DNA of 64,000 bases from the NCBI RefSeq assembly GCF_036711975.1, contig NC_091972.1, forward strand, positions 9,181,001 through 9,245,000. The letters run 5' to 3'. Under the pieces are notes generated by a model. That model saw only the letters and a list, made by a program, of their open reading frames with translations. It searched no databases and was not told where the DNA came from. Source of the stretch: Onthophagus taurus. Taxonomy: Eukaryota > Arthropoda > Insecta > Coleoptera > Scarabaeidae. Below are positions 737 through 35,606 of the stretch, in pieces (within the stretch, counting starts at the first letter, position 1; every line of letters starts with the position of its first letter). Position numbers and translations under genes: made by a program.

Positions 737-1456
737 ATGTCTCGCGACGCGTACGTCGGGGGTAGCCGGTCCCCGAGGGGCGTGAGGTTACCCACCGTGG
801 ACCGGTCGCCGAGCAGGGTGTACCATCCGGGCGGTAGCCCGGTCGGCGTCGGCGTCGGAGTCGGCAGGAAAGCACCGCGCCAGACAAGAAGCGGAAACGC
901 GTCTCCTGATCACGTCGTATCCACGTCGTACCAGGGGGGGTACTACCACGAGGACCTCGGTAGTCCGATGCTCGAGGAGCGCGGCAGACCGTTGGCCGTC
1001 GGACCGGGAGTCGGGGGTCACCATCGCTCGAGGAGTGCGACCCGTCCCTCGAACCCGATGTCCGTCCGGTACCAATCGCTGGACAGGGGTCCGCCGCCTG
1101 TCGACCACGATCGCGAATTCTTGCCGATAAGGGACCGAAGAGACAGATCGCTCGAAAGAAGTTTGTACTTTGACGACGATCCGTATATCGGCGGAGGCAG
1201 ATCTGCACGACAGTCACCTGTCTCGCATCAACCCTTTCTCGGAGAGCTTCAGCACCAAAACTCCGACCTGCAAAAGGAGCTCGGAACACTTAAAAAAGAA
1301 TTAGAACTGACCAACCAGAAGCTCGGATCGTCGATGCACTCGATCAAGACCTTCTGGAGTCCAGAACTGAAGAAGGAGAGGGCGTTACGGAAGGAAGAAT
1401 CCGCCAAGTACAATATGATCAACGAACAACTCAAACTACTTAGCAGCGAAAATCAG
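737..1456 (+). CDS. brp: brp coding exon 1 (residues 1-240)
   Basis: Starts MSRDAYVGGSRSP, continues as a low-complexity Ser/Arg/Pro/Gly region, then YQSLDRG, DREFLPIRD and the conserved ELKS/CAST segment beginning FLGELQHQNSDLQKEL and ending KLLSSENQ. The donor is CAG|gtaaat, phase 0. The longer open frame reaching 1546 is intron read-through. The N-terminal unstructured part matches the insect BRP N-terminus in style (RSRSATRPS, YQSLDRGPP). Confidence 0.95.
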
Positions 1457-4400: not shown

Positions 4401-7400
4401 TATATAACCGTGTTGGTGATCATTGAAGAGCTCAGTCTTCTTAAAAAAATTTGTCAGTCTGTCGGCCAAAACGTACTCGAAGATTTTGGAAATTGTAGGG
4501 AGAATCGATATTGGTCTATAACTTGCTGGATTTTCCAGATGTCCCTTTTTGTAGATGGGGCATATTTTAGCAACTTTTAATTCGTCAGGGAACACACCAT
4601 GTTTTAAACATGCATTTATTAAGTTTCTGTATGAAAACAACTAATCGATTAATCGTACAAGATAATGGTAAAAGTGACTTTAATTTACGTCTAAATGAAC
4701 ATCCCATAATTCATAAGTGGTAATAGTAAACTTACAACACCGATTGCGCGTTATTACTAATAAACAATATTGCCGAGTTGTATACGTTAATAGATGCGCC
4801 TTAAACGTATCATATACTACGTATATCGGTCATTGGGTGACGTAATACGTGTACAGTAGTGAAATGGCAGAGTAAATTTCCCGAACATTAACGATCAATC
4901 ACCGGTAGGGCACTCGGCGTGCTCTGTTTAGTCTCCGATACTCGAAACGTCCCCATTTACACATACAAACACATACATGGCAGACGTATACTCTGGCGGT
5001 TCGAAGCAGTAATGCCAGTTTTGCAATCGGTTCGGTAAGCGAAACCCCGGAAAACGATCCCCTATCGTATACCCTTCAAAACCCATCGTCTCGTCCCGTG
5101 CCGCCATTTAATACACACGTACACCCCAGCATAAATGTACGATTGTTGGTTATTGTTAAGGGAGAATGAACAATGGTTACTCAAGTTTCACAACGGATAC
5201 GTTTGTTCTCAATAAATAGAGTTTTGTAAAAAAATCGGTTATAATAAGTTGTTTAAATTAATCAAATAATGAAATCTCACAGCAATAATAAATCATAATT
5301 AATTAAAATTGACACTCAAAATGAATTGAGTACAGGATACACAAAAATTAAACCAATTATATTCAGTCAATTGTATTATTAAAAAATGTTATATATAGTA
5401 TCACTAAAAGGTTTTTGTTAAACTAATAAGTGGGTACACGAGGAACACAAAGTTAGTAAAAGCTCGGGAGTATTTTAATGGAAAACCTTTAGCTACTCAT
5501 ATTAACGAAGTTTCAATATCATGAACGAACGATGTTCATAAAATCATCATCCTGGCTATAAATCATTTCGGCCATTATTAACTATCAACGTTGTTGTAGG
5601 GTGGATAGTACTTTACACAAATTATAACGAAAATGTGGATTATTCTACCTCAAAAACAAAACAAATATTTACCATTAACGCGACAAATTCTAATAAAAAA
5701 TACCTACAAAGAGTCTATGTTTTGTCTCGATTAAGCGGATGTCCCATTTAACGACCGACCAATTAAGCGGATTACCCTGCACATAAAACGATCCCTAAAA
5801 TCAATTGAATCTCACCATTCATTACATTCTGCATTTTGAAAATTTGTTACCCATGTTTTGTAAATTGAGGTCAAAACTAAACAACACTATACTTAAAAAT
5901 CGCGGTACAGTTATAAACACCAAAATTAGTTAGTTCATTGCGCATTTATTAAGAATATTAAAATCTCTTGCGAATTTGAGTTCCACATTTGACGATTTAT
6001 CGTGGTGGTAAAGGACGAGGTTTAGCTGCATCGAAATGAAAGTTACAAAATCAAACTCGTATGTAATGAACAAGTAAAACCTTGCAAGTTAAAATATTTT
6101 ATCTCAGATTAAAAACTGTAGTTCAAGATCTTGGAATAATAAATTAACAGTATTCTGCAGATTTTCATTTTCGTGTTTCTGGATAATGATCATTACAATG
6201 ATATCTTTGAGCTCATTTACACGTCGGGTATCTAATCCATGCGCCAAGTTAATGAAAGATTTTTTAATTGAACCCCTACAGCGTCGAAAACAGCTTTGAT
6301 GCTATTCAATACGTCGTCTGTCGGGACTTCTCCTGGGAATTAATTCTAGAGTAATACTCTGCGGTGTTAATCTTATCTATGAGCTGAATATTTTTCATAT
6401 TCAACACGTTGTTATCAATTTATTTCTTATTAATTGTTTGAAAAGATTTATTTGTTCAGATATTATGTTCCTGTAACTGGTACATAGTAGTTATCGATTG
6501 GCATTTTCAATCATCAGAAATGATGTTAATAAGTGCATCATATTACTTCGAGGCGATTTATTGTTCTTGAATTGATCTGATCCCCTCAAATTGCTAGAAA
6601 AACAGATATAGGCAATCACTGCTTTCAAAATCAATATATCTTCACAAATTTCAAAATTCTGTTTGCGTACACAGTGTAGAATTTTACAAGTGTTAAAGCT
6701 AGATTGGCTCGAATGCCATATTAAGTATTAAAAAATGTAGTACAATTACACCCATCTCACGCACTGCTTAATTACATTTATTTATTCTAATCTGTGAGCC
6801 TCCCACGCCCGTTTAAAGACCACAGTTTAAGCCTATTAATCTCACGTTTATCATAACTTTTAATTCAGATTCTGGAATTATCTTTTCTTTGATTTCAAAA
6901 TATCTCAGAAAGTTACGTAAAAAGAATACTTATGTCAGAAAAAGTGTAAGCCACAAAAAAGGTGTTACAGTTAGAAAGAAAAACATTTAAACATTAATAT
7001 GATACATTTTAAAGCATTTAATGTGCAATTCCACGTTACAGTTAGAACATTTCTTCTGGACTTTTTTATGACGAATTCTGCAACGCGTTTGCTTTTTTTG
7101 TCTAATGAGCAAATCATCTTGAGTATCTCAACATTTACGCCACCTCCGATTGACGAATTTAGTGCAAAAGTTCTCAAATTTCGCAACCACAGTTAATTGT
7201 GTTTTTGAGTTATCGTGTTTACACATACATACATATACGCTGACCTAAACTAAAAATAATCTAAATGGATCCCCTGGCCTCTGAAAACGTAGAGATCCAT
7301 CAAAATCTCGAGGTCAAATTTTTATACGATTACAATACCTTCTCTTTATATACATGAGAAGGAATAAAAAAAATCATCATCTGTTATTTACATAGAACTG

Positions 7401-16400: not shown

Positions 16401-19400
16401 GTCTATTTTTGGTTTTGAAGAAAATGTTATATTAATAAGTTATGCTTCAAAAGCAATCAAGGCTGTAGGACTTCTCTTCTATGTACCGCAAAGCTTCAAT
16501 AAACAGTGAAAAAGTACTGTAATACTAAAAATTGCTTATAAGTACTATTCTAAACCATTTGTTCTCAGAAACGAATAAGCTCAATAACTTATTGTGTGAA
16601 GCATAACTGTGCAAACTTGTTCCGCTCGGTCCAATAGTTAAGGAGATATTTCTGGCACCGATTTTGAAAGCATTTTTTCCGAGTAAAAAGTGTTTAAAGT
16701 TTTGAGCTCACTTTACACTAAAATAATTTTATTTATTTTAAACCTAGATGAAATCCTCGATTCCCGGGCCATATGACAGATCTTCTTTAGATCTTGAGCT
16801 ACCCATTAAATTTTTTTTTGTTGTATTAAGATTTTACATTCGGCGCACATTCATCGAAATGATTGTTCTACTTGGATTACGTTTCCTCGTATGATGAAAA
16901 TAACGTGATATGCTACTTCAAACCGCAATCTGGATACTCAGAAGGGAACTGGCAACTCATCTATTTAAGTATAAGTGCCTGATTATGAACAGTCGAAAAT
17001 GATAAACTTTAAAGATATGAAACCCTAATAATAAAAAACTTCTTTTAGAGGATTAATTTGATCTAAACGTTGCCTTCTTAAAGATAGAATCAAAACTAAT
17101 ACGAACTTAATATTGTACATTTTGAGAAAAATCTAATTTTCATGACAAAAATCGAAGATTTTAACGACCTATGTTTTTGCTATTATTAACAATTGGGTCG
17201 AGTTAAATTAGGTTAAATCATAATTGGGTTCACATGGTTTTGGATCTGGAAACAGTAAACTAAGTTCACTAACAGAAATTGGTTCTTTGCTATCCGCTTC
17301 TGCTAATAGAGACATTTAAAAGCAGTACTAAAATATTCATGCCGTTATAGCGTTCTGTTTCGGCCAGACGCTCCTACTCCTGCTATAGTATATTACAGTT
17401 TAGGTGAATATTAAGAACTTGATGTAACCCGTTTTCGCGCCAAATTTGTATTCAACGATATGAGTATAATAATACGAAAGTGGTACATTAAAAAAGAAAG
17501 TAGGGATCCACTTATATTCGTCGTGAGATATTTATGAATGTCTCTGTACTATTTACCCCCTCCCAACATCGAGTCCCGGCGGAAATACGTAAAAGCGGAC
17601 CTTAGCCTTCCTTTCGATATCTTTTGAACTAAATAAAAAACAAATAGAAGTGAAAGTTGCAATCCATTTTCATGAATAATTTTTGTTACAAATATTATTT
17701 CATCTAATATAATTAATAATTTTCCGTAGTTAATGATCTCTTATTACAATTGTTACAGAGGCAAGCATTATTAGTAAGAAATTTAGAAGAAGAATTAAGA
17801 ATGCGAGTTCGTGGTCCCAGTATTGAAGTTCAACAACAAATGGAAGTTTTATACCAAGAGAATGAACACTTGACGCGAGAAATAGCAATACTCAGGGATA
17901 CAATAAAAGTAAGTAAAATTTGAATGTTTGTTGTTTTGTTACTTTATTGTGTTATTATAATGATATGTTTTTTAATAATCTTGTAATTTTTAGGAATTGG
18001 AATTGCGTATTGAAACGCAAAAACAAACGTTGCAGGCGCGCGATGAGAGCATCAAAAAGCTACTGGAAATGTTGCAGAACAAGGGGATGGGTGAGTGCTA
18101 TCGCTCTTAGCCGTCTCTCATTGTGCCCCCTTGACAATTCACGCTTAGCGTTTTCCCCTTATTATTCCCTCCAGCACTGCGATGTACGCCGTCGCGCTCT
18201 CCCCACATCTTTTTCACTACAATCGGACATTATGTTATACGATCACCATCGTTGAAATAATATATAAAAGAGAAAAGAAACGAGGCAGAGTAGCAGGTTA
18301 TTGTATTACAAAAAGAAAGAGTCTTACATACAGTTACAGTGCGTTTTCGCTCTTACACACATGCCATTTTATTTATTATTTTTTAAATGCATACTTAGTG
18401 TTTGAAATGAGGAATGAGCCTACGACTTTTAGAGGAGCCCGTAGACTTTCGGTGTTTGAGCCGGACTTTAAAGAACGACGACTAATGCCGGTGGTGTTGG
18501 CTTTGTTCCAGGTAAAGAGGAAGAGAGACAGATGTTCCAACAAATGCAAGCGATGGCTCAAAAACAGGTGCTTATCGTTACGTGCGGAGCCGTAACAAGT
18601 CCTTAGGACACTTTCTCCGGACGTCCGAGGGGTAACGTTGCGCGAAATTCCCGCCAAACTGATTTATATACTCATTTCGGGATATTTTGCTCAACGCTAT
18701 TCAATCGTAGTTATTACTTATTAATACACATTCGTCATGTTGGAAAAGTAGAACATGTTTAAAAGGGTTTTCTTGAAATGTATTCTATTTTTCCTTTATC
18801 ATCGCAATTTTCATCGAGTATAGTAGTCGTTGTAGAAGGTTGAAGGTTACCAATTTTCTTAATCATCTTAGTTGATTTGAATTGCGATGATATGTTTTGG
18901 TTGAAACGCGATTTCATTAAATTAAAATAAAAACGTATGTTATTGTAAGTACGTAAGCTTTCACGGCTGGTGTTATCTAAAATGAAAGAAAATACTTTCG
19001 GGTTTCACTACACCCTTCAATAACCTTTTTAGGTTAAAAGTTGCAACATTTCAAATTCATTCCACGAAGATATTTTTTGAATCCCATAACTATATATTTG
19101 TAATTCATTTATTATAGATTGCTGATATTTTCAGTTTTGATACAAAACGGTACTAAATCAATTACTTGAAGGATTTAAATTATATCTTCTTGAGGTTAAT
19201 AGTAGCTTTGAAACCCGAAAGTGGCATTCATTTAAGATGTATGTATCGCATGAACCAAAGTCAATCACTTCACAAACCTAACTAACCTAAATAGGTGTGT
19301 GCACGGTAGATAACGTCGAGTCTCGTGGTCGTGATAGTTTGCGTGTGCTTGTTGACAATTGTTGCGTTTTGGTGCCTGTGAGGGACAGAGAGCGTGGTAA

Positions 19401-22400
19401 AAGCAAAGCCGAAACGAAAATCGGTTGGGCGAAGGGAATCAAATCGAAACGAAAATCCGAAGCCGAATGAAACGACTCGAATCGAAATAACGAACAAATT
19501 AAAAAAAAATTAATAGGTCGACGTGTATAGTTATGGGGGCATACCTGGTTTTCTTTTGGTTGTCTGCAGGAGCTGCGCGCGGCCAACGACACGTTGCGTA
19601 CCCTGCAAACGCAATTGGAGCTGGTCCCCTCGCCCTCCAGTAGCACAATAAAGGTCCTGCTAGATACGAAGGACGCTCGAATCGCGACACTCGAGCGCGA
19701 AGTGAATTTACTGGAGAGCGAGCTGGACCGTGCGCTCGGAGACCAAATCGTCGGGGCCAGTCAAGTAATCGTGACGCAGCCGATGCCCGGCGGCGGCGGC
19801 TTCTTCGGGGGCGGTTCCTTGCCGCCACCCACCCCGTTCAAGCGACAAGTAAGTTTTCTGTTGAACGATGTCCAAGTCGGGAAAGACGGCACCGTTATCG
19901 GTAGACTGTAACTAGTTGTAAAGACTCTAACGCGACCAACGCTACGACAACGACAAGTACAAGTACAGTTTCTCCTCCTACTACTACTACTTCTACTTCT
20001 ACCTCTACTACTACTACTACAACTACTACTAGTACTACTACAGCCACCCTTTGCCGTATCAAATCGCGTCGCGTTCGAACGGGCGAGTGCCGATGACGAT
20101 TCTGAGCGTACTTTTACCACCTCATTGTCTCTTGGCACGCACGTATCTCCCCGCATGGATAGTGCATGCAATTGGTCTACTTTGGTACAGCTCGACGAGT
20201 TTCGCATGGAGATCCAGAGGCGCGACCAGGAGATCCTAGCGATGGGTGCCAAGATGAAAACGCTCGAGGAACAGCACCAGGACTACCAGCGGCATATCGG
20301 CGTTCTGAAGGAGTCGCTCTGTGCTAAAGAGGAACACTACAACATGCTGCAGGCGGACGTCGAGGAACTCAGGCAGAGGTTAGAGGAAAAGAACCGACAG
20401 ATAGAGAAGAAGCAGCAACAACATCAACAGGAGAGGGCGAGGGCCGGAGCCGAATTAGCGGAAATGAGAGAGCATATGGACATTAAAGATCGAAAAATCA
20501 ACGTGTTACAAAGAAAGGTAACCTTTTCTAACCATACAATATTGATGTTTGTTAATGTTGTTATTAGAAAAATATGAACGTTTATAATTATAAGATTACT
20601 ACTACTCATCATATTTCACAATTGATTATCATTTAGATACATGTCTAGTTTAGTAAGTAGCAAAAGCAACAAAGGCATGCTTCAAAGACAACTGACAAAA
20701 ACTAATCCATTATTTTACTCCAATTTCTAATTAACATTAACTATTTTTCTTTTAAAATATTTCAATCTTAATCTTACTGTATTTTCTACAATTTGATAAT
20801 TTTAATAAATTCTTCACGAATAGTATAAGTTACGATCTAATTATTTTATTGTTGCTTCGTTATTAATCTGGTGGTGTCAGTGATTAAGAAGTGTCAAAAG
20901 AAGTAGGCATGTTTTTGTCGCGCTCCGTTAGTTGTAGTATTGAGATTCAGTCACATCATTCAACAGATAGAAAATCTTGAAGACTTACTGAAAGAAAAAG
21001 ATAACCAGGTGGACATGGCGCGTGCTCGTCTCAACGCCATGCAAGCGCATCACTGCTCATCCGAGGGCGCCTTATCGTCACTGGAAGAGGCCATCGGGGA
21101 CAAAGAAAAACAAATGAATCAGTTGCGTGAACAACGCGATCGGGCGGAACAAGAAAAGGCAGAAGAAAGGGAGCTGCACGAAAGGGAATTGGCCGAGTAC
21201 AAGATGAAGCTGCACGCCTTAAATAGTGAAGTAGAAAAGTTAACTGTTCGTTTGGAAAGAGCTCAAACTGATCGAGATAGATTGGAGGCGAAATTGGAAA
21301 GTTCGCAATCTGAATTGGGTAAGAGTAAAGCGGAATTGGATAAAGCAACGATAGAAGTGGGAAGAAGCGGAGCCGATTGGGATCAGGCAAGACAAAAACT
21401 GGCTCGCCTCGAGTTAGAAAACGAAAGGTTGAAACAGGAATTAGATAGGTCGCAAACGACGTCGTTTACAAGGGCCCATTCTCTTGGAAGATCCCAACAG
21501 GATTTCGACTTTGATAGAACAGATAAAACCTCGGCAGACCTGAGACGTTGCCAGGCAGAGCTGAGGGTAACACAGGCCGATAACGAAAGGGCCAAATCGG
21601 AAGCAACGGCACTGCAGGAGAAGCTCGAAAAGTCCCAGGGGGAAGTGTACCGCCTCAAGGCTCGCTTAGAAAACTCCCATCAAGAACAGAACAGCTTACG
21701 GGAGGAATTGGAGAGGGCTCAGTCCAACATGGCCCGTTTACACGCAGACAAAGATCGTTCAGCTATGGAGCTGGAGAAGGCGCGCGAAGAACTAGAGCGC
21801 TCGCAAGCGACCTTGGGCAAGGCGCAACTTCAACAGGACAAATTACAAAACGCTCTAGACAAGGCGCAGACGGAGGTCGACAAATTACAGGAGAAATTGG
21901 ACAAAGCTATAGGAGAGACCAGACGAGTAAGTTTCACTTTTAGCACAAATCTTCAATTTTAAAAACGTTTATTAATAGGTGCAACTCGAAAAAGAAAAAC
22001 AAGGGTACGATTTCGAGAATGTCCAATCGCAATTGGACAAGGCTCTAGGCCAATCTGCTCGTATACAGAAGGAAAAGGATTCTATCCAGCTAGAAGCAGA
22101 TCGGCTTAGAGATAAATACGAGAAATCTCAAGTAAGTAACTTAATCAAACCTTTTTAAATGTTTTAATCACCTAAACTAAAATTTATCTATTTTAGATCT
22201 CAATATCTCGTTTACAAAAAGAAAAAGAAACCGTATTAGAGGAAGTCGAAAAGCTGAAAGAAAGATTAGAGATGCAGCTGAACCAGATAGCTAAAGTTCA
22301 AAGGGAACGTTCCGACATCGAAACGGAACTCGATTTGATGAAGGAGAGATGGGACAAAACACACCTTCTCCAGCAGAAGATCCAAATTGAAAGAGACGAT

Positions 22401-25400
22401 GCCATAGCTGAAATCGACATTCTAAAAGAAAAACTTGACAAAACGATATATGCTTCTCAAAAAGCTATCGATGAAAGGGAAACAGTCAACAAAGAATTTG
22501 AAAAAATTTTGGAAAAATACGATAGGTAAAATCTTAAAACTAAAATTTTAAGGAACTATAATCAAAATTAAATTAATTTATTTTTCTTGGATTATTTAGG
22601 TCTCAAAGCGACGTATATCGACTTCAAAACAAGATCGACGCAATCCAGGCAGATAAAGATCGTTTAGAACTTGAAATTGAGAAACAACAAATAGTATCAA
22701 CGAAAGCCCGAGACGACCAACGTAAACTTCAAGATGAACTTCAGCGTATGCAAGAAATGTACGATAGGGTATCAATGCAATTAAACAGAGCGAAAGAAAT
22801 GGAAGAAAAATCAAAGGAAGAACTAGGAAGGGTTGGTTTAGATATAGAAATGGCGAGAGAACGATATGAAAAAGCTCAAATGGAAGTCCGCAGAATTCAA
22901 AGTGAAAAGGATAAACTACAATCGGACAACGAACGTCTTCAGTACGAAGTGGAAAGATCTCACGCACAAGCGACTAAATCTCAGGCGAGTTACGAAAAAG
23001 CCCAAGAGGAATTGTCACGGTTGAAACTGGAATTGGTTAAAGTTCAGGATAAACACGATTGCTTACAAAATGAGTTTAGAAAAGTCGTTGGCGAATACGA
23101 CGCTTTAAGAGAAACAACCACACCGGCAAGATACAGTAAATACGATCGAGAAGATCGAACTAAAGATGAAAATGACAGATTAAGAGCCGAGGTGGATAGA
23201 TTAAGAGAGAGACTAGATAAAACATTAACGGAACTTGATCGATCTAGAAAAGATTTAGCCCTCGCCGAATCCACAAGAACTAAATATCAATACGAACAAG
23301 AAAAAGAACGAGGAGTCGAAAACGAACGACTCCGCGATGAATTGCAAAGAACAGTAAACACCAACCAACAGTTGGAAACCAAACTACATGAAGTAAACAT
23401 GCAATTAGACCTTGCCAGATCTGAAGTAAACAAACTTTCCGGTAATCAGGATAAGCAACGTCACGAACTCGAAAAAGCAGTTATAGACTGCGAAAAACTT
23501 AGAGATCGATACGAAAAACTTAAGATGCAAACTGAAAAGATCGAGAAAGAAAATGAAAAGCTTCGTCTGGAAGTAGCTCAAACGGATCGAAGACAAACAT
23601 TAGCGGCTGATAAATTAAGGTCGGAAGAAAGACTCGAAATGGAGAAGTTAAAGGAGAAACTTGAAAAGGCGCTTTTGGCGAGAGACGCGACCGAATTAGA
23701 AGCTGGAAGGCTCGCACAAGAATTAGAAAAGTCACAAATGCACTTAGCCAAGGCACTGGAAACGAACGAAGCGACTAAAATAGAATTTGAAAGAATGGCA
23801 ACGGAATTGTCTCGTATGCACGAAAGAATCGAAAGGGAAAAGATAGAGTGGAAAACGTTGGAGCAAGAACGAGACGTCCTTCGCGCGGAAGTTCAACAGG
23901 TCAAATCCGGAATGGACACGCAACGAAGAACAATAGACCACAGGACTCAGGAAACGATCGTTAAATTACAACAGGAATTAGCCCAAGCATCAAGAGAAAG
24001 AGAAAAAATGGCTGCTCTTTTAGATAAACAAGGTAGACAAGGTGATTCTATAGAAAAACAAATTATTAAGTACGAAGCCGATATAAAACAATTAACCATG
24101 GAAAGGGATCAATTGGTAAATCAACTTGAAAAATCTCAGGACATGTTAATGAACTTCCAACAGGAATTGAACCAGAGCGAAGCGGAACTCGAGAAACAAA
24201 GAGCGGAAGTCAATCGTTTGAAAATGGAACAAAAACGAATGACACAAGACGTTGAGAGGGGAACGAAAGATATTTTAGATAGCCGAGATAGGGAAATAAC
24301 CAAACTTCAACAGCAGTTGACGTCTATTCAGAAAGAAAGAGATGCTCATAGAGCTAGGGCAGATAAAGCCGAAAAAAGACTTCAAGAAACAGGTGCGCGC
24401 GGTGATAGTGAATTAGAACAGTGGAGAAAAGTAGTCGAGAGCGAAACTCAGAGAGCAGATATGGCCGAAAAGGCGGCTCAAGATTTGCAAAAACGAATAC
24501 AGATTATGGAGAAGCAGTTACAACAACAACTTCAACAAATGGCACAGTATCAAAAAGCTTCTGGTATTCATCCGCCTCAAGATGATAAAGAGAGTGCTAG
24601 GATGAGAAAAGAATTAGAAAAAGCACAGCAGGATTTGAAAAATAGTCACACTGAAAAAGAAAGGTTACAATCTCAATTGGAGATGTTGGTGCAAGAATTA
24701 GAGAGGAATCAGGTGAGAAATATAATTATTTTAGTAGAAAAATTGATATTTAAAAAAGACAAGCAAAAATATTTTATGATTTGTATTTTTATTTTAAAAC
24801 GTTTAAATTCCTACTAATACCAACCTAATTTCCTATCGTATCATAGTCATTCTATTTAAATATTTGTTTACACTTAGTTATTTTTTTCTTATTCTTATCT
24901 GCGTTAAAAGCAAATTATATGACTTATATATATATTTATATCAGCTTGAGCTACACGAGACAACAAAGAAACTCCAAATGGCTCCTCAAAAACCAGCCGA
25001 AGATTATTCGGGTGAACGAAAACAACTCGAAGAACAAAAACGACAATTCGAAGAATACAGAAGACAAGTTGATGAACAAAAGAAAGCCATTGATAGTAAA
25101 CAAAAACAACTAATTGAAAAAGAGAAGGAATTAAATAACGTAGATAAGCAATTGAAAAAGCGGAAAGAACAAATGGATCAGTTAGAAAGTTCTTTGCAGA
25201 AGGTAAATAAATCTTTCAAAAAGTTTTAAAATAAATTATAATTTGTAATTTAGGCCGGAGGAAGCGCAGCAGCGGCAGGAGAATTACAGAAAAAACTTGT
25301 AGAAACAGAAGAAAAATACAAAAAAGCAGACGAAGAAGTTAAGAGATTAACAGCTGAAATGGAACGATTACTCCAATTAGTACAAATGAGTCAAGAAGAG

Positions 25401-27339
25401 CAGAATGCTAAAGAAAAAACTATTATGGAGTTACAACAGTAAGTTTTTTTTGTCTAAAATCGTACTTATTATTCTAATGCAATTTCTTTATTAGGGCACT
25501 AAAGAACGCACAGGCTAAATTGAAGTCTCAACAGCAAGTCCAGCAACAATTAGAAGAGCAAAGAAAGAAAGAAGAGGTAAAAATTAACCTATTAAATAAT
25601 TTAACCAAAAAATTAATATACCGTTCAATTTTTTATCAACTTTCGTGGAAAATCGTATGTATAGGCCGGACCTGCTGGTTTCCTAAAAAGCTTCTTCTAA
25701 ACCTATTCAAACCCAATCGAAGCACCATCACCAAAACATTTTTCAAATCATTCAATATCCCTATTACTCAACTGCCTCATTCCTTTTTAATGTAACACCA
25801 TTTGTGGTAGCTTCTTTTGTATTTGCCGTCTTACACGTTGTTGTTATATTGTTATACCGTGTGCCCCTTTTTATGTATTAATCAGATGGAACCTTGTAAT
25901 GATGACGAAACGCCACGAGATAAACGTGAGTATATTGTCGACCTGGAATGCCGACTGGAATCGTACGGACAAATGTTGAAAGACAACAAAAATGAAATGA
26001 ACATTCTAGAAGACAAATTACGGAGAAAGAATGAAATTTTAATCGAGATGGAAAGCAACACAGTTCATATTGATGCGTTGACACAACTGGAATGCGATTT
26101 AGACCAAAAGAACATGATAATTGAAGAACTAAATAAAAAACTAGAATCATTTTTGAAAAGTGATGATAACAAAGATGACATTCAAGATATAAACGATCTT
26201 TTATGCGTGATTAATGTCAAAGACGTCCGCATACGCGAACTGGAAGAAGCTGTTCGAGAGAGTCTTAAGATATGTACTGAACGTGAAAACGTTTTACATC
26301 AAGAAGAGAATCGAAGGAAAAGGATTTTGGAAAAAGTTCATAAGTTGGAGCAAAGATTACTTTCTTTGCAAGCAGCTCAAGCTGTTAAATGTCACTCGTG
26401 TCGACCTATTGTTTTGAGAATGCACAGTTTAGAAAGTAAATTGAGTAAATTAGTTTCTGAAAGGAAAGATAATTTACAAGAATTGGCACATATGAAGTAA
26501 GTATATTATTTCAAGTAAAAAACACAATACTGAGAATACAATTTCATTTGCAGAAGAGAAGCTCTTGAAGCCGCTATTAGTGAGAAAGACGCTCATTTAG
26601 CTCTTCTGGAAATGTCAGGAATAAGAAATGCAAAACAATCAGATGAAGTGGATCGATTAAAATTAGATAGACGAAGATTAGTGGATAGACTCAAACAAGA
26701 GGTTGTTATAAATAATTAGTATTTATTATTTTTACAATTATGAATTTTAAACGACCTTGAAAAGAAAAGTTAGTCTAAATAGTCAAATGCCGTTCATTTA
26801 ATTTCCACTAGTATTAAACTGAACACTTTTCCTTTCAATGTCGGGCCATTCCAAAACTTCTCAAATGTATAGAGTATGTCAGACCACAAGATTTATTTGG
26901 AAACGGCGAATACCAGAATGATAACGGTTAGAACTGGTATTGATAATTAACATGGGGTAAATTATCATCAAAAATTCAAAACTTGTAAATTAATAATAGT
27001 GTCAATACCATAAACCAATTTTGATTGCCATCCTCATTTACTTACATTTCCTACAAGATTTTTAATAAAATGTATGCAAACCTTGTAGGACAATTCATAA
27101 AAGATGTGCTCATGTTAAAGTAATAATGCGAGAGATTAGTTGACTACAGTTTTCCAAATAAATCGGCTAGTACAAATGGTCTGTAATACTAACAATCTTT
27201 TTTATTTAATTTAAGATTTCTTTTTTTTTCTCTTCAGAATGAGCTAAGTGTTTCTTTAATAGAAGATAGTTCCTCTTTTGAAAATTTAGACGAAATTGAC
27301 AACGATAACAACTCAGTTAATGGAAAGTTAGAAACGTGA
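737..27339 (+). CDS. brp: Bruchpilot, ELKS/CAST/ERC-family active-zone scaffold (whole gene span)
   Basis: Bruchpilot builds the electron-dense projection at insect presynaptic active zones, clustering Ca2+ channels and tethering vesicles. Exons: 737-1456, 17759-17908, 17994-18090, 18512-18567, 19570-19848, 20191-20517, 20967-21926, 21979-22131, 22197-22525, 22600-24712, 24945-25202, 25254-25438, 25495-25576 and terminal 25665-25700. They sum to 5745 nt, exactly 1915 codons with the stop. An alternative terminus uses 25886-26496, 26554-26701 and 27238-27339 (2190 codons). The N-terminal third has the strongly conserved ELKS/CAST blocks (SSMHSIKTFWSPELKKER near residues 205-225; IENLEDLLKEKDNQ near 544). 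The rest is nearly continuous heptad coiled coil rich in Glu, Lys, Arg and Gln. The fly protein is about 1740 residues, so the size is reasonable. The first ATG in frame with good context is at 737. Family identity is very secure; isoform use is inferred. Confidence 0.96.
1823..2275. mobile_element. Foldback MITE with ~120 bp terminal inverted repeats
   Basis: The left arm from 1826 (CAGCGTGTCCCGTATCTTCC) runs to about 1947. Its reverse complement fills about 2118-2273, and the right arm carries roughly 30 extra bases made of repeated ATAATGC/TATA motifs. TA dinucleotides flank both ends, as expected of a Tc1/mariner-type target site. The central ~170 bp is unique and codes for nothing visible. 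It is a non-autonomous element in brp intron 1. Confidence 0.85.
2311..2969. repeat. Array of palindromic TAGTTCTAG-type repeats bounded by 12 bp inverted repeats
   Basis: About 550 bp is built from two alternating palindromes. One is CTAGTGTTAGTTCTAG with its complement around a TTTTGCACTAGCA-like centre; the other is CATTCGGGTTTAGCC with its complement around a CTTGAGAGACG centre. The array (about 2324-2880) lies between TGTCCCACATAA at 2311-2322 and its reverse complement at 2958-2969. This suggests a transposable unit rather than a plain satellite. Related repeats recur at 41936-42360. Confidence 0.8.
3158..4643 (-). mobile_element. 5'-truncated non-LTR retrotransposon (CR1/jockey-like)
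   Basis: On the minus strand an intact reverse-transcriptase frame is followed by a short 3'UTR and a (ATT)n/(TAA)n tail at about 3162-3189. This is the hallmark of target-primed LINE insertion with a microsatellite tail instead of poly(A). Homology stops abruptly near 4643, inside the RT fingers, so the endonuclease and ORF1 are missing. The copy sits in antisense orientation in brp intron 1. I could not identify a clear target-site duplication. Confidence 0.9.
3264..4640 (-). CDS. Reverse transcriptase fragment of a LINE (458 codons)
   Basis: This is the RT domain of a non-LTR retrotransposon ORF2, which normally copies element RNA at the nicked target. Motifs in order on the minus strand: YRPISILPTISKIFE (fingers), SIDLSKAFDSVSH (palm, first catalytic Asp), GVPQGSILGPLLF and the catalytic box YADDT. 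LNEEKTQYL and a C-terminal region ending FFEIIL follow. No internal stops or frameshifts appear across the 458 codons, so the insertion is young. The N-terminal endonuclease and initial RT segments are absent and the apparent start Met is internal, so the fragment is presumably not mobile. Clade assignment (CR1/Daphne versus jockey) is uncertain. Confidence 0.93.
   Translation of the reverse strand: MFSYRNLINACLKHGVFPDELKVAKICPIYKKGHLENPASYRPISILPTISKIFEYVLADRLTNFFKKTELFNDHQHGYIKGRSITSGVNEIIQSIIKAIDQRKYVELISIDLSKAFDSVSHSYLLYKLDCYGVRGTALSMFTSYLCNRKQTVIIDGALSKTYDINVGVPQGSILGPLLFVIYVNDMPYSVPNDNVCLYADDTTFISTANNMDDLQTKTQLTLVAAKKWFGNNGLKLNEEKTQYLHFQNNVGAENNSLKFLGIYLDNKLNWQVHVENISKKLNTAIYTVRRIRNVATIFAARLAYYANFHSIATFGILFWGASSAAERVFLLQKKALRALCNLKSTQSCKQYFKEQRILTIYSVYVLNCITDMRQNIDKHIANNEKHEYNTRQKEELAIPMHRLKKTQDNSIFWGIKLFNHLPQRIRMLPQQRLQCVIKEALMEAPLYSIEDFFEIIL
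4645..11450. other. Long AT-rich intronic stretch, no recognisable gene
   Basis: Part of brp intron 1. All frames are short and lack recognisable motifs. A 21-base direct repeat lies at 7684-7704 and 7908-7928. A slightly GC-richer block at about 4880-5120 holds no long frame. I see nothing else to annotate. Confidence 0.6.
11460..12230 (+). pseudogene. piggyBac-like transposase relic
   Basis: Broken frames retain the C-terminal half of a piggyBac (DDE_Tnp_1_7) transposase. Near 11900 reads QETIAVGTF followed by an AKKAEMF-like stretch (family pattern: ...VGTxRxNRKG...KLKKGE). At 12090-12180 reads LIDMAIVNAYIIN followed by NNRRRIIAAIGLL, the family's conserved 'LLDIAVVNAYILY' helix. Stops and frameshifts interrupt nearly every segment, so it is an old dead copy in brp intron 1. 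Boundaries are approximate and terminal repeats were not found. Confidence 0.7.
13150..13500 (+). pseudogene. Tc1-like transposase relic (C-terminal half)
   Basis: Fragments in shifting frames match the DDE domain of Tc1/mariner transposases. A GIMDHRIYN segment lies near 13230-13260. HENNLKHTTTNVKYWLL lies near 13335-13385, corresponding to the usual QQDNDPKHTS...V..WL. At 13424-13483 reads DLNPIEHIWKELDRRIRK, which carries the third catalytic acidic residue. Multiple stops show it is dead. It lies inside brp intron 1. Confidence 0.8.
14047..14389 (+). other. GC-rich exon-like open block in brp intron 1
   Basis: An open frame runs from a possible acceptor (cgatag at 14041-14046) to a TGA at 14387-14389. 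It encodes about 113 residues rich in Arg, Ser, Gly and Pro (GLDRRPNCHLSGDD, SSSGPSRRTERGTRK), then the more ordered LVRIDTEKHGF and a tail ending ALETSF. The block is markedly GC-rich against AT-rich flanks, as real exons in this window are. I do not recognise the protein. It could be an alternative brp exon, an exon of another gene, or a fragment of an inserted gene. Other frames here are also partly open, which weakens the call. Confidence 0.3.
14600..15860. other. CpG-rich patches in brp intron 1, no gene
   Basis: Two GC-richer patches (about 14640-14960 and 15640-15840) stand out from the AT-rich intron but hold no convincing frame. They could be enhancers or alternative promoter/5'UTR sequence for a shorter brp transcript. 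This is suggested only by composition and position upstream of exon 2. Confidence 0.25.
17759..17908 (+). CDS. brp: brp coding exon 2 (residues 241-290)
   Basis: Acceptor ttacag, donor AAA|gtaagt, phase 0 at both ends. Encodes RQALLVRNLEEELRMR through REIAILRDTIK, collinear with the fly BRP segment KQAMLVRQLEEELRLR. It is a coiled-coil continuation of the ELKS N-terminal homology block. Confidence 0.95.
17994..18090 (+). CDS. brp: brp coding exon 3 (residues 291-323)
   Basis: Acceptor tttttag, donor G|gtgagt, leaving one base of a Gly codon. Encodes ELELRIETQKQTL and ARDESIKKLLEMLQNKGMG, nearly identical to the family block RDESIKKLLEMLQ. An 85 nt intron separates it from exon 2. Confidence 0.95.
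18512..18567 (+). CDS. brp: brp coding exon 4, 56 nt (residues 323-341)
   Basis: Acceptor gttccag completes the Gly codon. Encodes KEEERQMFQQMQAMAQKQ, as in fly BRP. The donor CAG|gtgctt is weak. Phase 0 at the 3' end allows joining either to the exon at 19570 or directly to 20191, and both joins preserve the frame. Confidence 0.92.
18568..19569 (+). other. brp: brp intron 4, possible degraded repeat
   Basis: A 1.0 kb intron. Its middle (about 18945-19240) carries the short inverted motif TTTCGGGTTTC/GAAACCCGAAA about 200 bp apart, with GTAAGCTTTCACGGCTGG-like sequence at its left end. This is suggestive of an old non-autonomous element. No gene is supported. Confidence 0.35.
19570..19848 (+). 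CDS. brp: brp in-frame cassette exon (residues 342-434)
   Basis: 279 nt, phase 0 on both sides, acceptor ctgcag and donor CAA|gtaagt, so it can be skipped without a frameshift. It encodes ELRAANDTLRTLQTQLE, then TIKVLLDTKDARIATLEREVNLLESELDRAL, and a Gly-rich tail (GGGGFFGGGSLPPPTP). The middle resembles the vertebrate ELKS segment ALQTVIEMKDSKISSMERGL. As I remember it, the classical fly BRP reads QKQLDEFR straight across this point. Inclusion is therefore probably isoform-specific. Confidence 0.85.
19969..20042 (+). repeat. CTA/CTT trinucleotide-rich microsatellite in brp intron
   Basis: About 70 bp of CTA/CTT/ACT triplets just downstream of the cassette exon and about 150 nt before the next exon. 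The pyrimidine-rich run is near enough to affect cassette splicing, which is inference. It is likely length-polymorphic. Confidence 0.85.
20191..20517 (+). CDS. brp: brp coding exon 6 (residues 435-543)
   Basis: Acceptor ggtacag, donor AAG|gtaacc, phase 0. Encodes LDEFRMEIQRRDQEILAMG, the HIGVLKESLCAKEEHYNML block shared by fly BRP and vertebrate ELKS, a Gln-rich stretch, and DIKDRKINVLQRK. Among the most conserved parts of the protein. Confidence 0.96.
20967..21926 (+). CDS. brp: brp coding exon 7 (residues 544-863)
   Basis: Acceptor caacag, donor CGA|gtaagt, 320 whole codons. Starts IENLEDLLKEKDNQVDMARARL and includes SSLEEAIGDKEKQMNQLREQRDRAEQEK, then insect-type coiled-coil repeats (LEKSQGEVYRLKARLEN). 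It links the ELKS-like N-terminal half to the insect-specific filament-forming half. Confidence 0.96.
21979..22131 (+). CDS. brp: brp coding exon 8 (residues 864-914)
   Basis: Follows a 52 nt intron. Encodes VQLEKEKQGYDFENVQSQLDK through KYEKSQ with donor CAA|gtaagt. Coiled coil with KALGQSARIQKEKD, matching the fly KALGQAARMQKER. Confidence 0.93.
22197..22525 (+). CDS. brp: brp coding exon 9 (residues 915-1024)
   Basis: Acceptor tttag, donor AG|gtaaaa. Encodes ISISRLQKEKETVLEE, IQIERDDAIAEIDILKEKLDK and NKEFEKILEKYDR, collinear with the fly MERDDAVTEVEILKEKLDK segment. The intron after it is 74 nt. Confidence 0.94.
22600..24712 (+). CDS. brp: brp coding exon 10, large coiled-coil exon (residues 1024-1728)
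   Basis: A 2113 nt exon completing an Arg codon at its acceptor and ending CAG|gtgaga. It encodes almost pure coiled coil, rich in Lys, Glu, Arg and Gln. Recognisable family segments include ARDATELEAGRLAQELEKSQMHLAKALE and QLVNQLEKSQDMLMNFQQEL, both close to fly BRP. In the fly the corresponding region forms the elongated filament whose C-terminus tethers vesicles. Minus-strand frames beneath it are artefacts of codon bias. Confidence 0.95.
24945..25202 (+). CDS. brp: brp coding exon 11 (residues 1729-1814)
   Basis: Acceptor tatcag, donor AAG|gtaaat, 86 whole codons. Encodes LELHETTKKLQMAP, then Gln/Lys/Glu coiled coil ending LKKRKEQMDQLESSLQK, which matches fly LRKRKEQMDQLEKSLQ. Confidence 0.94.
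25254..25438 (+). CDS. brp: brp coding exon 12 (residues 1815-1876)
   Basis: Follows a 51 nt intron. Encodes AGGSAAAGELQKKL through LLQLVQMSQEEQNAKEKTIMELQ, near-identical to the fly sequence. It ends two bases into a Gln codon with donor gtaagt. Confidence 0.95.
25495..25576 (+). CDS. brp: brp coding exon 13, last exon common to both tails (residues 1876-1903)
   Basis: Encodes ALKNAQAKLKSQQQVQQQLEEQRKKEE with donor GAG|gtaaaa, phase 0. It can splice to the short terminal exon at 25665 or to the ELKS-like tail at 25886. Both acceptors are phase 0, so the choice of acceptor decides the C-terminus. Confidence 0.93.
25665..25700 (+). CDS. brp: brp short terminal exon (AGPAGFLKSFF tail)
   Basis: Eleven codons plus stop after the acceptor tatag. 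The product ends AGPAGFLKSFF, practically the C-terminus of fly BRP (GPAGFLKSFF). In fly studies the extreme BRP C-terminus tethers synaptic vesicles to the dense projection. The exon is too short for ordinary gene finders and lies inside a misleading read-through frame. Confidence 0.93.
   Translation, partial: AGPAGFLKSFF
25886..26496 (+). CDS. brp: brp alternative ELKS/CAST-like C-terminal exon A
   Basis: Acceptor atcag, phase 0, donor AA|gtaagt. Encodes MEPCNDDETPRDKREYIVDLECRLESY, then coiled coil with the vertebrate ELKS/ERC signature VRIRELEEAVRESLKICTERENVL (ERC: DEALRESVQITAEREMVL). It includes CHSCRP, a small cysteine motif. The leading ATG means it could also begin a separate short transcript, but the spliced join to exon 13 is in frame. 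Family identity is clear; usage is inferred. Confidence 0.85.
26554..26701 (+). CDS. brp: brp alternative ELKS/CAST-like C-terminal exon B
   Basis: Completes a Lys codon and encodes REALEAAISEKDAHLALLEMS through RRRLVDRLKQE, closely matching vertebrate ERC (KQEALLAAISEKDANIALLELS...RLVQQLKQQ). The following donor gttgtt is weak. Read-through adds only VVINN and then stops, so two endings of this tail are possible. Confidence 0.87.
27238..27339 (+). CDS. brp: brp alternative C-terminal exon C
   Basis: Acceptor ctcttcag after a long polypyrimidine run. 33 codons, NELSVSLIEDSSSFENLDEIDNDN..., ending GKLET and stop. An acidic Ser/Asp/Asn tail follows LKQ at about the position where vertebrate ERC has LMADNYEDD. 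Inclusion depends on the weak upstream gttgtt donor, so confidence is moderate. Confidence 0.6.
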   Translation, partial: NELSVSLIEDSSSFENLDEIDNDNNSVNGKLET

Positions 27340-30794: not shown

Positions 30795-31705
30795 ATGATT
30801 GACAGGCGGAAAGAAAACTGACATTCCTAATATTCCTTCACGGTATAATTGGGGTTTCAAAATAAAAGTGACCTATCCTAACATTCCTTCGTGCTATAAT
30901 TCGGGGTTTCAAAAGAAAACCAATCTATTCAACATTCCTGTACGCTATAATTGGGACTTCAAAACTACCTGTCTTAACATTCCTTCGCGGTCTAATGAGG
31001 TTTCAAAAGAAAAGTACCTGTCTTAACATTCCTTCACACTTTAATGGGATTTCAAAAGAAAACAACCTGTCTTAACATTCCTTCACGCTTTAATTAGGGT
31101 TTCTTCACGCTATAATTGGGGTACAAAAGAAAACCGACATTCCTTCGCCCTGTAATTGAGGTTCAAAAGAAAACTGACCTATCGTAATATTCCTTCACGG
31201 TTTAATTAGGGTTTCTTCACGCTATCATTGCGGTAAAAAAGAAAACCGACATTAGGACTTCAAAAGAAAACTACTTGTCTTAACATTAATTCACGCTTTA
31301 ATGCGGTTTCAAAAGAAAACTACCTGTCTTAACATTCCTTCACGCTTTAATTAGGGTTTCTTCATGCTATAATTGGGACAAAAGAAAACCAACACTCCTT
31401 CACGCTTTAATGGGGTTTCAAAAGAAAGCTACATGTCTTAACATTCCTTCACGCTTTAATGGGGTTTCAAAAGAAGACTACCTGTCTTAACATTCCTTCA
31501 CGCTTTAATTAAGGTTTCTTCACGCTATAATTGAGGTACAAAAGAAAACCGACATTCCTTCACGCTGTAATAGGGGTTCAAAAGAGAACTGACCTATCCT
31601 AACATTCCTTCACGGTATAATTGGTGTTTCAAAAGAAAACTGACCTATCCCAACATTCCTTCACGCTATAATTGTGGGGTTTCAAAGGAAAACTGACTAC
31701 TCAAT
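30795..31705 (+). repeat. Minisatellite of ~50 bp units
   Basis: At least 15 degenerate tandem units around ACATTCCTTCACGC-TTAATGGGGTTTCAAAAGAAAACTACCTGTCTTA. Many are about 49-54 bp; some are truncated or carry an extra GGTTTCTTCACGC segment. The 75-codon frame at its start (30799-31026) merely reflects units near 51 bp, which keep one frame open. Confidence 0.92.
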
Positions 31706-33133: not shown

Positions 33134-35606
33134 TTAAATAGAACAATGTAGCTTGTCGTAAGCTTTTACTTTCTCAGGAATTGCAGTCATTTCCAATGGA
33201 ACTCTGGCAGTCAATTCCCTTAAACTTGCCGAAAATGTAATTTTTCTATAAAACTTCGAACTTAAAAAAGATAATTAAAGCATTAATATTTTTTCACATA
33301 ATTAATCAAAAAAAAATTTACCTTATAAATGGTTTTGCCATAAAAAGCATTGTTTTAATCCACAATGTCGGATGCACAATATATAAATGCACGAGATTCT
33401 TCCTCAATTTCCTCCCAACCATTTGATAGCATCGTTTCAACCACGAAAACGACGGTAATTTCGACGCTGCGCCATGTAAATAAATCAACGCGTAATCTTC
33501 TGTAACAAGTCTCTCTAACGTCCATAGAACGTAAAGAAACAGATTATCCATAACGTAATCATAGTCTATTCGAGATTTATCAGGTAAATAGCATGCTGAA
33601 AACACGACTATCGCCGTATGGCCTCCTGAACGCAAATAACCGCCATGGGATAAAACTCTTTTATATGGTTCTATTACACGCATATCTATAGTGCGTTGTT
33701 CACCTCCAGGTAAAACCATGCGTTGCCAGTGCCTTGCGTGTTTACGTTCTTCAGCTGCACTTAATGGTTCTATTGGTTCTGGAGATTCATTTCCTTACAA
33801 ATTAATACAAAAAACATTTAGATTAGATTTAAATCATTTATAAGAAAATGTCATGGTGTAAAGTACAATGTAAAAACATGAATGCAATAATTGAAAGGGA
33901 GTATATACAGGATAATTCAAATTCGACCCCCACCATTGGGATCTCAGAAACCAAAAATGGTTAAATGGGGGCAAAGTTGCGTATCTTAGAGGTCATCATT
34001 TTTCAACTAAGATTTTCTATCTATCCGTTTTAGTTTTTAAAATATGGCCGAAAAACAAAAAAAATGACTTTTTCAGTTTTTACCTATAACTCCATTATTT
34101 TTCGTTTTTTCATGAATCTGAAAAAACATTCTTAAGGCAACTTTTTATGATAAATGTCGTGACACAACTAGAAATTTTCTCCAACGTTTGGTATTTGTGA
34201 AACTATCATCAGGTTTATTCTTTTTTTTATCAACAATTCAATGTTTTTCTAAATGAAATATATTGTGTGATATATCATTGAAATCAGAATTAATTATCCT
34301 ATTTTTTGATATTTTTAAACGAAACGTCAGAGAAAATTTCTAGTTGTGTCATGACATTTTTCATAAAAAGTTGCCTTAAAAATGTTTTTTCAGATTCACG
34401 AAAAAACGAAAAATAAAGTATAGGCAAAAAACGAAAAAGTCATTGTTTTCTTTTTCAGCCATATTTTAAAAACTAAAACGGTTAGATCCAAAAACTTTGT
34501 TGAACAATGATCAGCTCTAAAATACGTAACTTTGCCCCCATTTAACCATTTCTGTATCTCTTATGGTTTCTGAGATTTCAATGGTGGGGGTCGAATTTGA
34601 ATTACCTGTATATCGACCAATAAGTCATAGATGATACATTAGCTTTAAATTTTTAATCAAACTTGATTAAATGTTTATTTAATCAGCAATGTGTGGTTAA
34701 AGTATATCAATTCCTTACTCTCTCCTGTTTCTGAACAATCATCATCCAAATCGATCATTCCTTGGAAACAATCCTCCGACTTTAAGCTATCAGAGTTGCT
34801 ATCCAAACTAGAAACATCACTATCCTGGTCCATATCAGTATGAACTACTTTAATTCTTCGCAATTTATTGCTTCTTCTACCATGAGCCAAAAAGTTTAAA
34901 TTTCCTATAACATAACCGTTAACAAGCAAATTTTTAGTTGTAATTTAAAATTTTACCTTCTTTCTCATTCATTGTTAAAGAAACATTTTGAAAATTTGAA
35001 CTTAAATGTGCCTCATAAATAGACTTATCGTTTTCAGTATCACTTATATCGCCAGGACACACTTCTATTGGCATATCAATCATTATCTTTTTTAATTCAG
35101 ATGGACTGGATGGAAATTCTTAAAAACAAAAAATAAAGTTTAAATGAAAAATAAAAAATAATTAAAAAAATTAATTACCTGCTAAATTATTATCATATTC
35201 CAAATTGTTTTCATCTTCACCATCAAGCAGATCATTAGCAGAGCTATGAGCTTGAGGACGAAACTTTTGATGTGAACTTCTTTTAGCTTTTTCTGGTATT
35301 AAATCAGGATAATCAGGGGACACAGGAGAAGTACAAAAATTCATAAGTGGGTGAGAATAAGTCGCGTTTTGCGTGGATGTATAATTCCTTGACGATTTAA
35401 TGCTGTTTGCCATGTTAGTATTATCTAATTTTTCAGTGTTTTCTCTAAGTCTCAACACTTTTCTTTCCGGATTTTTTACACCTTCCACAAAGTTGTCTGC
35501 GCGTTCAGAAACGTCCATATCCTTAGATTCTTGAATTTCTTTTCTACTATAAAAACTAATTAAGTTTATTTATGAATAAACGTTTTCTAAAAATAACTCA
35601 CTTCAT
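33134..35606 (-). CDS. BNIP2: BNIP2/caytaxin-like BCH-domain protein
   Basis: An adaptor of the BNIP2/caytaxin/PRUNE2 family. The C-terminal BCH domain (a Sec14/CRAL-TRIO relative) binds small-GTPase regulators, kinesin or lipids. Minus-strand exons: 35602-35606, 35179-35546, 34957-35118, 34719-34904, 33322-33793 and 33134-33260. They sum to 1320 nt and 439 residues with every junction in frame. Residues 1-240 are acidic and disordered, including ELKKIMIDMPIEV and an Asp/Ser-rich patch (DQDSDVSSLDSNSD). The BCH domain covers about 278-430, with VLSHGGYL, YVMDNLFLYVLWTLE, DYALIYLHGA, RRLRKNLVHLYIVHP in near-consensus form, and KPFISSKFYRKI across the last junction. The first coding exon is only ATG AA, so it is the least certain; Met at 35518 is an alternative start. 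The exact paralogue cannot be named. Confidence 0.92.
33902..34613. mobile_element. Long foldback MITE in intron 5 of the BCH gene
   Basis: About 710 bp, with arms of roughly 250-300 bp that are inverted copies. Left end TATACAGGATAATTCAAATT; right end is its near complement ending AATTACCTGTATA. Both arms share the GACCCCCACCATTG and GGGGGCAAAGTT segments. No coding capacity. In the pre-mRNA this would form a long hairpin. Flanking TATA-like sequence suggests a TA-rich target. Confidence 0.88.

Follow-up and report, generated by a model that had tools for sequence, protein, structure and literature searches.

The bruchpilot (brp) locus of the scarabaeid beetle Onthophagus taurus raises the question of whether one gene can end in two incompatible ways, either in the short C-terminal tip of fly Bruchpilot (BRP) or in a C-terminus of the ELKS type, as an initial annotation of the DNA had proposed. 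The analysed stretch, called the window here, comprises 64,000 nt (G000:C7:9181001-9245000), and homology searches were also run across the 291-Mb genome. No other brp/ELKS gene was found in this genome, and the locus probably offers two alternative 3' ends, between which splicing would select, the ELKS-type tail being the ancestral ELKS end.

The common part of the gene consists of 13 exons between 737 and 25576 (Table 1), all joined at GT-AG junctions, and its spliced translation gives 1903 codons without a stop. By homology this frame is bruchpilot, because fragments of the fly protein align with it: the identity to three of the five fly fragments printed in PMC4536467 was 59% for D1, 71% for D2 and 51% for the C-terminal part of D4 (D3 and the N-terminal part of D4 were left out), and across these alignments the ELKS-like N-terminal half and the long coiled coil are colinear with fly BRP. 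Exon 13 (25495-25576) closes on a complete codon (phase 0), and the 36-nt exon that opens at 25665 adds AGPAGFLKSFF and a stop, as first reported; all 11 of these residues are identical to the fly BRP C-terminus (PMC4536467). Exons 11-13 with this ending (end A) show 51% identity to the fly D4 C-terminal fragment, and the chain of exons 1-13 and end A is open throughout, with 1915 codons including the stop (1914 residues). The short tip of fly BRP holds synaptic vesicles at the T-bar. Scored with our own generic splice-site matrix, the 25665 acceptor is weak (-2.9, top 27% of AG sites), and exons 8, 9 and 12 of brp likewise have weak acceptors. Neither AATAAA nor ATTAAA occurs between 25700 and 25885, and therefore the 3' untranslated region of form A may extend across the next acceptor at 25886. 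The choice of end could then be a competition of the weak 25665 acceptor with the 25886 acceptor, which is stronger (2.9).

The 25886 acceptor (TTAATCAG/ATGGAA) is also in phase 0 and opens a 611-nt exon, t1, which closes at 26496 before GTAAGT. Both sites of t1 are good, the acceptor lying within the top 1.5% of AG sites, and the acceptor of the third tail exon, t3, is very strong (10.3, top 0.1% of AG sites). Spliced translation confirmed a tail of 286 residues (end B), which with exons 1-13 forms an open chain of 2190 codons including the stop, or 2189 residues; the two chain lengths given in the initial annotation (1915 and 2190 codons, in frame to the stop) were thus recomputed and found open. 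An open frame of 203 codons, as in t1, has a probability of about 2e-8 by chance at the tail's own base composition, and the codon scores of t1 and t2 are coding-like in the correct frame.

The homology of end B is to ELKS. The joined tail (t1-t3) matched the Pfam family Cast at positions 585-760 of 766 (E 1.8e-15), and t2 alone matched it over the cut-off (E 5.6e-11). No match to Cast was obtained with t1 alone, the similarity of which emerges when t1-t3 are joined or when t1 is set against a piece of ERC1 (E 5e-10). The comparison with ERC1 that had been suggested initially gave, with this piece, E 2e-23 for the tail and E 9e-5 for BRP exon 10. Among PDB sequences (up to E 10), the single match of the tail was the Rab6-binding domain of ELKS1 (chain 8ij9_C, E 8.8e-11), with 33 of 69 residues identical (48%) over that domain. 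One search with the tail through prokaryote genome contigs found no relative. Scanned singly, the matching exons follow the order of the Cast profile from exon 1 to exon 7, which begins at Cast position 403, and on to t2 (Table 1). Exons 1-7 joined to end B cover most of the length of the profile in three stretches (E 1.3e-101), the best of which reaches position 579; by itself, the tail matches from 585. The proposal of one gene with two incompatible C-termini, one with the fly BRP tip and one of the ELKS type, is supported by the identity of the tip and by the Cast match of the tail, although the description of the tail as a vertebrate ending was misleading, since the region is conserved in both mouse and C. 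elegans (accessible sections of PMC5830537).

A mere coiled-coil similarity was considered as the source of the ELKS look of the tail and rejected: Cast was the sole Pfam family at E 0.1 or better and ELKS1 the sole PDB match, and this explanation is also contradicted by BRP exon 10, which has no Cast match and is far weaker than the tail against the ERC1 piece.

Twelve ELKS1 residues that touch Rab6B are named in an excerpt of PMC10267580, and seven of the 12 are identical in the tail (I867, S868, E869, D871, A875, L876 and K905), with two more replaced by similar residues (L879 to M and M912 to V). According to the same excerpt, D871R and K905E abolish the binding of ELKS1 to Rab6, and binding drops strongly when S868 is replaced; the tail retains the residue at each of these three positions. 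These contact residues, together with the match to 8ij9_C, identify a putative C-terminal Rab6-binding domain. A Rab6 gene was found in the same genome. It retains what we take to be D49, R63, Q65 and R84, and its first exon, with the positions of L11 and K13, was not found within the stretch analysed.

The search of the genome for the Cast family, which scores its best candidates only, gave four places over the cut-off, all of them exons inside the window, and below the cut-off one further place in the window and one on contig C3 (E 0.024). As protein queries, t1 and t2 each gave one genomic place. A second ELKS gene elsewhere was rejected, the C3 match being the sole one off the contig and below the cut-off among these best candidates, from which t2 was missing. 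As judged from its exons, the locus carries an ELKS gene in order to its end, and the BRP coiled coil and tip precede the last part. Mainly because the Cast order is completed at this locus, with the BRP coil and tip before the last part, the tail is regarded as the original end of the gene.

Based on this arrangement, a possible splicing scheme is proposed, from which use of each junction, its regulation by cell type and Rab6 binding are predicted. Joining of exon 13 to the 25665 acceptor would give the short BRP tip as in flies, and joining to the 25886 acceptor, whether of exon 13 or of a phase-0 exon further upstream (for example exon 7), would give the ancestral ELKS C-terminus with the Rab6-binding domain. 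The BRP coiled-coil exons and the tip would thus separate the ELKS body from the end it originally had, and the gene would retain both the old and the insect-type endings. Three products are phase-compatible, namely exons 1-13 with end A (1914 residues), exons 1-13 with end B (2189) and exons 1-7 with end B (1149). Form A is predicted to tether synaptic vesicles, and form B, without the tip, to capture Rab6-GTP carriers. The 2189-residue form would be the whole BRP filament with its vesicle tip swapped for a Rab6-binding-like end. The initial annotation had interpreted the choice as a switch between a vesicle-tethering filament and an ELKS-like scaffold without that tether; the predicted replacement of the vesicle tip stands, but exons 1-13 with the tail would retain the whole BRP coiled-coil filament, and an ELKS-like scaffold would not result from the 25576-25886 choice but would instead require a phase-compatible skipping of exons 8-13. 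It is conceivable, and offered here only tentatively, that the gene makes two active-zone filaments with swappable tips, one vesicle-holding and one catching Rab6 cargo, through competition of the 25665 and 25886 acceptors, and that the second tip was lost in flies.

Several observations weigh against one gene with two spliced ends. The phase match at 25886 is weak evidence because 10 of the 13 brp exon ends are in phase 0, and the first codon of the exon is ATG, as would be expected of an independent transcript. At 26701 the donor (GTTGTT) scores poorly (-2.5, a value reached by about 25% of regional GT sites), and the codon score of t3 (-0.11) is below 0.13, the 95th percentile of non-coding 102-mers. 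The assignment of t3 as the last tail exon is accordingly doubtful; without the 26701 intron, the tail would terminate in KQEVVINN and a stop. Tail residues 1 to about 60 had no detected ELKS match or relatives, and neither GIWA, the PDZ ligand that ends the B form of ELKS, nor any end of the form (I, L or V)WA was found in any forward frame of the window. Three Rab6 contacts are changed (E857 to H, L864 to E and T908 to N), and the positions of T908 and M912 lie in t3, the least certain exon. The change of L864 to E may matter for Rab6 binding because replacement of hydrophobic contacts by hydrophilic ones impairs it (excerpt of PMC10267580). Exon 7 scanned alone reaches Cast 403-701, which overlaps the range of the tail, and the 579/585 boundary is seen only in the joined protein; this reach is probably due to the resemblance of the BRP coil in exon 7 to any coiled coil. 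Furthermore, t2, although over the cut-off when scanned alone, was not listed by the genome search for Cast, which short exons can escape.

The tail might be used only in a separate short ELKS form of about 1149 residues, in which exon 7 or a site within it is joined to 25886 and no 2189-residue hybrid is produced. The donor of exon 7 is fair (3.5) and lies in phase 0, the chain of exons 1-7 and end B gives the extended Cast match described above, and its length is near the approximately 1000 residues reported for vertebrate ELKS in part of PMC5830537. We nevertheless consider this form rather unlikely as the only use of the tail: it requires the skipping of six exons, whereas 25576-25886 is a simple junction of neighbours, exon 7 includes about 150 residues of BRP-type coil beyond the main Cast stretch, and exon 7 has only weak phase-0 donor-like sites (0.8 and 1.1) close to where that stretch ends. 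In the honeybee central brain, an antibody against D2, the ELKS-like region, detected two bands of ~220 kDa, and an ELKS-sized band is unmentioned in the accessible part of PMC5402947; these bands speak slightly against a plentiful ELKS-sized form in that tissue, provided that the honeybee has the tail at all.

An independent transcript of 25886-27339, driven by a promoter of its own and encoding a free Rab6-binding coiled coil of ~286 residues, is improbable. Its exon does begin with ATG, and the open frame, which extends back to 25811, has no earlier ATG; however, a good splice acceptor lies exactly at this ATG, the tail completes a Cast profile begun in the upstream exons, no other locus with a Cast match over the cut-off could provide the remainder of an ELKS gene, and in mouse and C. 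elegans ELKS a long protein ends in this region (PMC5830537, in part). Least probable is a decaying ancestral leftover, neither transcribed nor used. The poor donor before t3, the missing GIWA end and the three changed Rab6 contacts would fit such decay, but the improbably long open frame of t1, its good acceptor and donor, the coding-like codon use of t1 and t2 and the identity retained across the Rab6-binding domain argue against it. A single brp/ELKS gene with two alternative 3' ends is therefore preferred.

Table 1. Exons of the brp/ELKS gene and its two ends in the window.
Feature	Position	Strand	Remarks
Exon 1	737..1456	+	First coding exon, MSRDAYVGG...; Cast 1-70
Exon 2	17759..17908	+	No Cast match in single-exon scan; aligned to fly BRP-D1
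Exon 3	17994..18090	+	Cast 139-174
Exon 4	18512..18567	+	Aligned to fly BRP-D1
Exon 5	19570..19848	+	Phase 0-0; weak Cast 211-259, below cut-off; absent from fly BRP-D1 fragment
Exon 6	20191..20517	+	Cast 292-402
Exon 7	20967..21926	+	ELKS-conserved portion, then start of BRP-specific coiled coil; ends in phase 0
Exon 8	21979..22131	+	BRP coiled coil
Exon 9	22197..22525	+	BRP coiled coil
Exon 10	22600..24712	+	Long BRP coiled coil; no Cast match
Exon 11	24945..25202	+	Aligned to fly BRP-D4 C-term
Exon 12	25254..25438	+	Aligned to fly BRP-D4 C-term
Exon 13	25495..25576	+	Last exon common to both ends; ends in phase 0; aligned to fly BRP-D4 C-term
End A exon	25665..25700	+	36 nt, AGPAGFLKSFF and stop; identical to the C-terminal 11 residues of fly BRP
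End B exon t1	25886..26496	+	203 codons and two bases; first codon ATG; ELKS similarity from about tail residue 62
End B exon t2	26554..26701	+	Core of ELKS Rab6-binding domain; Cast 712-759
End B exon t3	27238..27339	+	NELSVSLIED...GKLET and stop; strong acceptor, weak upstream donor, no codon support; tentative

Exon 5, which encodes 93 residues between exons 4 and 6, matched Cast in order at E 0.008. At its position, the fly D1 fragment has ...MAQKQ directly joined to LDEF. Exon 5 is possibly a second ELKS-type piece that is skipped or lost in flies; a comparison with PDB sequences found no relative of it (best E 0.77).

The first large brp intron holds, in antisense, a 458-residue open frame (3264-4640, minus strand) with a reverse transcriptase domain (PF00078, E 1.9e-37) that looks LINE-type. 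Downstream, an exon of a BNIP2/CRAL-TRIO_2 gene (33318-33794, minus strand) marks a convergent neighbour of brp, and a degenerate tandem array with a period of about 49 and 17 copies (30810-31694) lies between the two genes. Elsewhere in the genome, a mitochondrial-like stretch with insect-type tRNA order lies within a 44-Mb contig (G000:C1:21443000-21452900); from tRNA-Met to tRNA-Trp it is broken by roughly 2 kb with a GC content of 50%. The stretch is either mitochondrial DNA inserted into the nuclear genome as a large piece or a join made during assembly. Its tRNA order is what we take to be the ancestral insect order. The start of the same contig (G000:C1:1-3000), alone among five contig starts inspected, carries a telomere-like (CCCAA)n array, i.e., TTGGG, an unusual telomere motif for insects. 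TTGGG telomeres are reported in a beetle, a damselfly, a melittid bee and a lacewing, and Diptera are among the groups having lost the canonical short telomere repeat, according to part of PMC12564400. The array and the tRNA order are consistent with an insect, and a fly would be unlikely on this basis. The start of contig C33 gave no match in Rfam or tRNA scans.

The predicted protein shares with Drosophila BRP-190/BRP-170 the ELKS-like N-terminal half, the long coiled coil and the 11-residue tip. In contrast, the Rab6-binding area is absent from Bruchpilot according to the accessible text of PMC7360120, and the published fly D1 fragment lacks exon 5. With vertebrate ELKS1/ELKS2 (ERC1/ERC2, CAST), the locus has in common the Cast profile, the Rab6-binding domain and spliced alternative C-termini, A and B (PMC5830537, in part). 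Both vertebrate variants, when tested, bound active Rab6 (PMC7360120, in part), whereas here the choice of end would add or remove the Rab6 domain; moreover, the GIWA end was not found here, and descriptions of the BRP coiled coil concern the fly protein and not vertebrate ELKS. C. elegans resembles this beetle in having a single ELKS gene with a conserved C-terminal region (residues 720-836), but its protein carries the GIWA end, and no BRP-type part is described in the accessible sections of PMC5830537. Honeybee BRP, with 1908 predicted residues, is close in length to exons 1-13 with end A; the available part of PMC5402947 leaves an ELKS-type tail unmentioned and gives further predicted accessions without their ends. 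No report of an ELKS-type end in insect brp was found among the listed titles and opening lines of abstracts, subscription papers, preprints and database annotations lying outside this search, and such an end is not described in the accessible portions of PMC2759580, PMC3263340, PMC2374702, PMC13371527 and PMC8977481. Such an end may already appear in automatic database annotations.

Fly BRP has been compared with vertebrate ELKS on the premise that it lacks both the ELKS C-terminus and the Rab6 site. If other insects retain the ELKS end in the same gene, this difference would reflect loss along the fly lineage or a choice of splicing, and not an insect trait.

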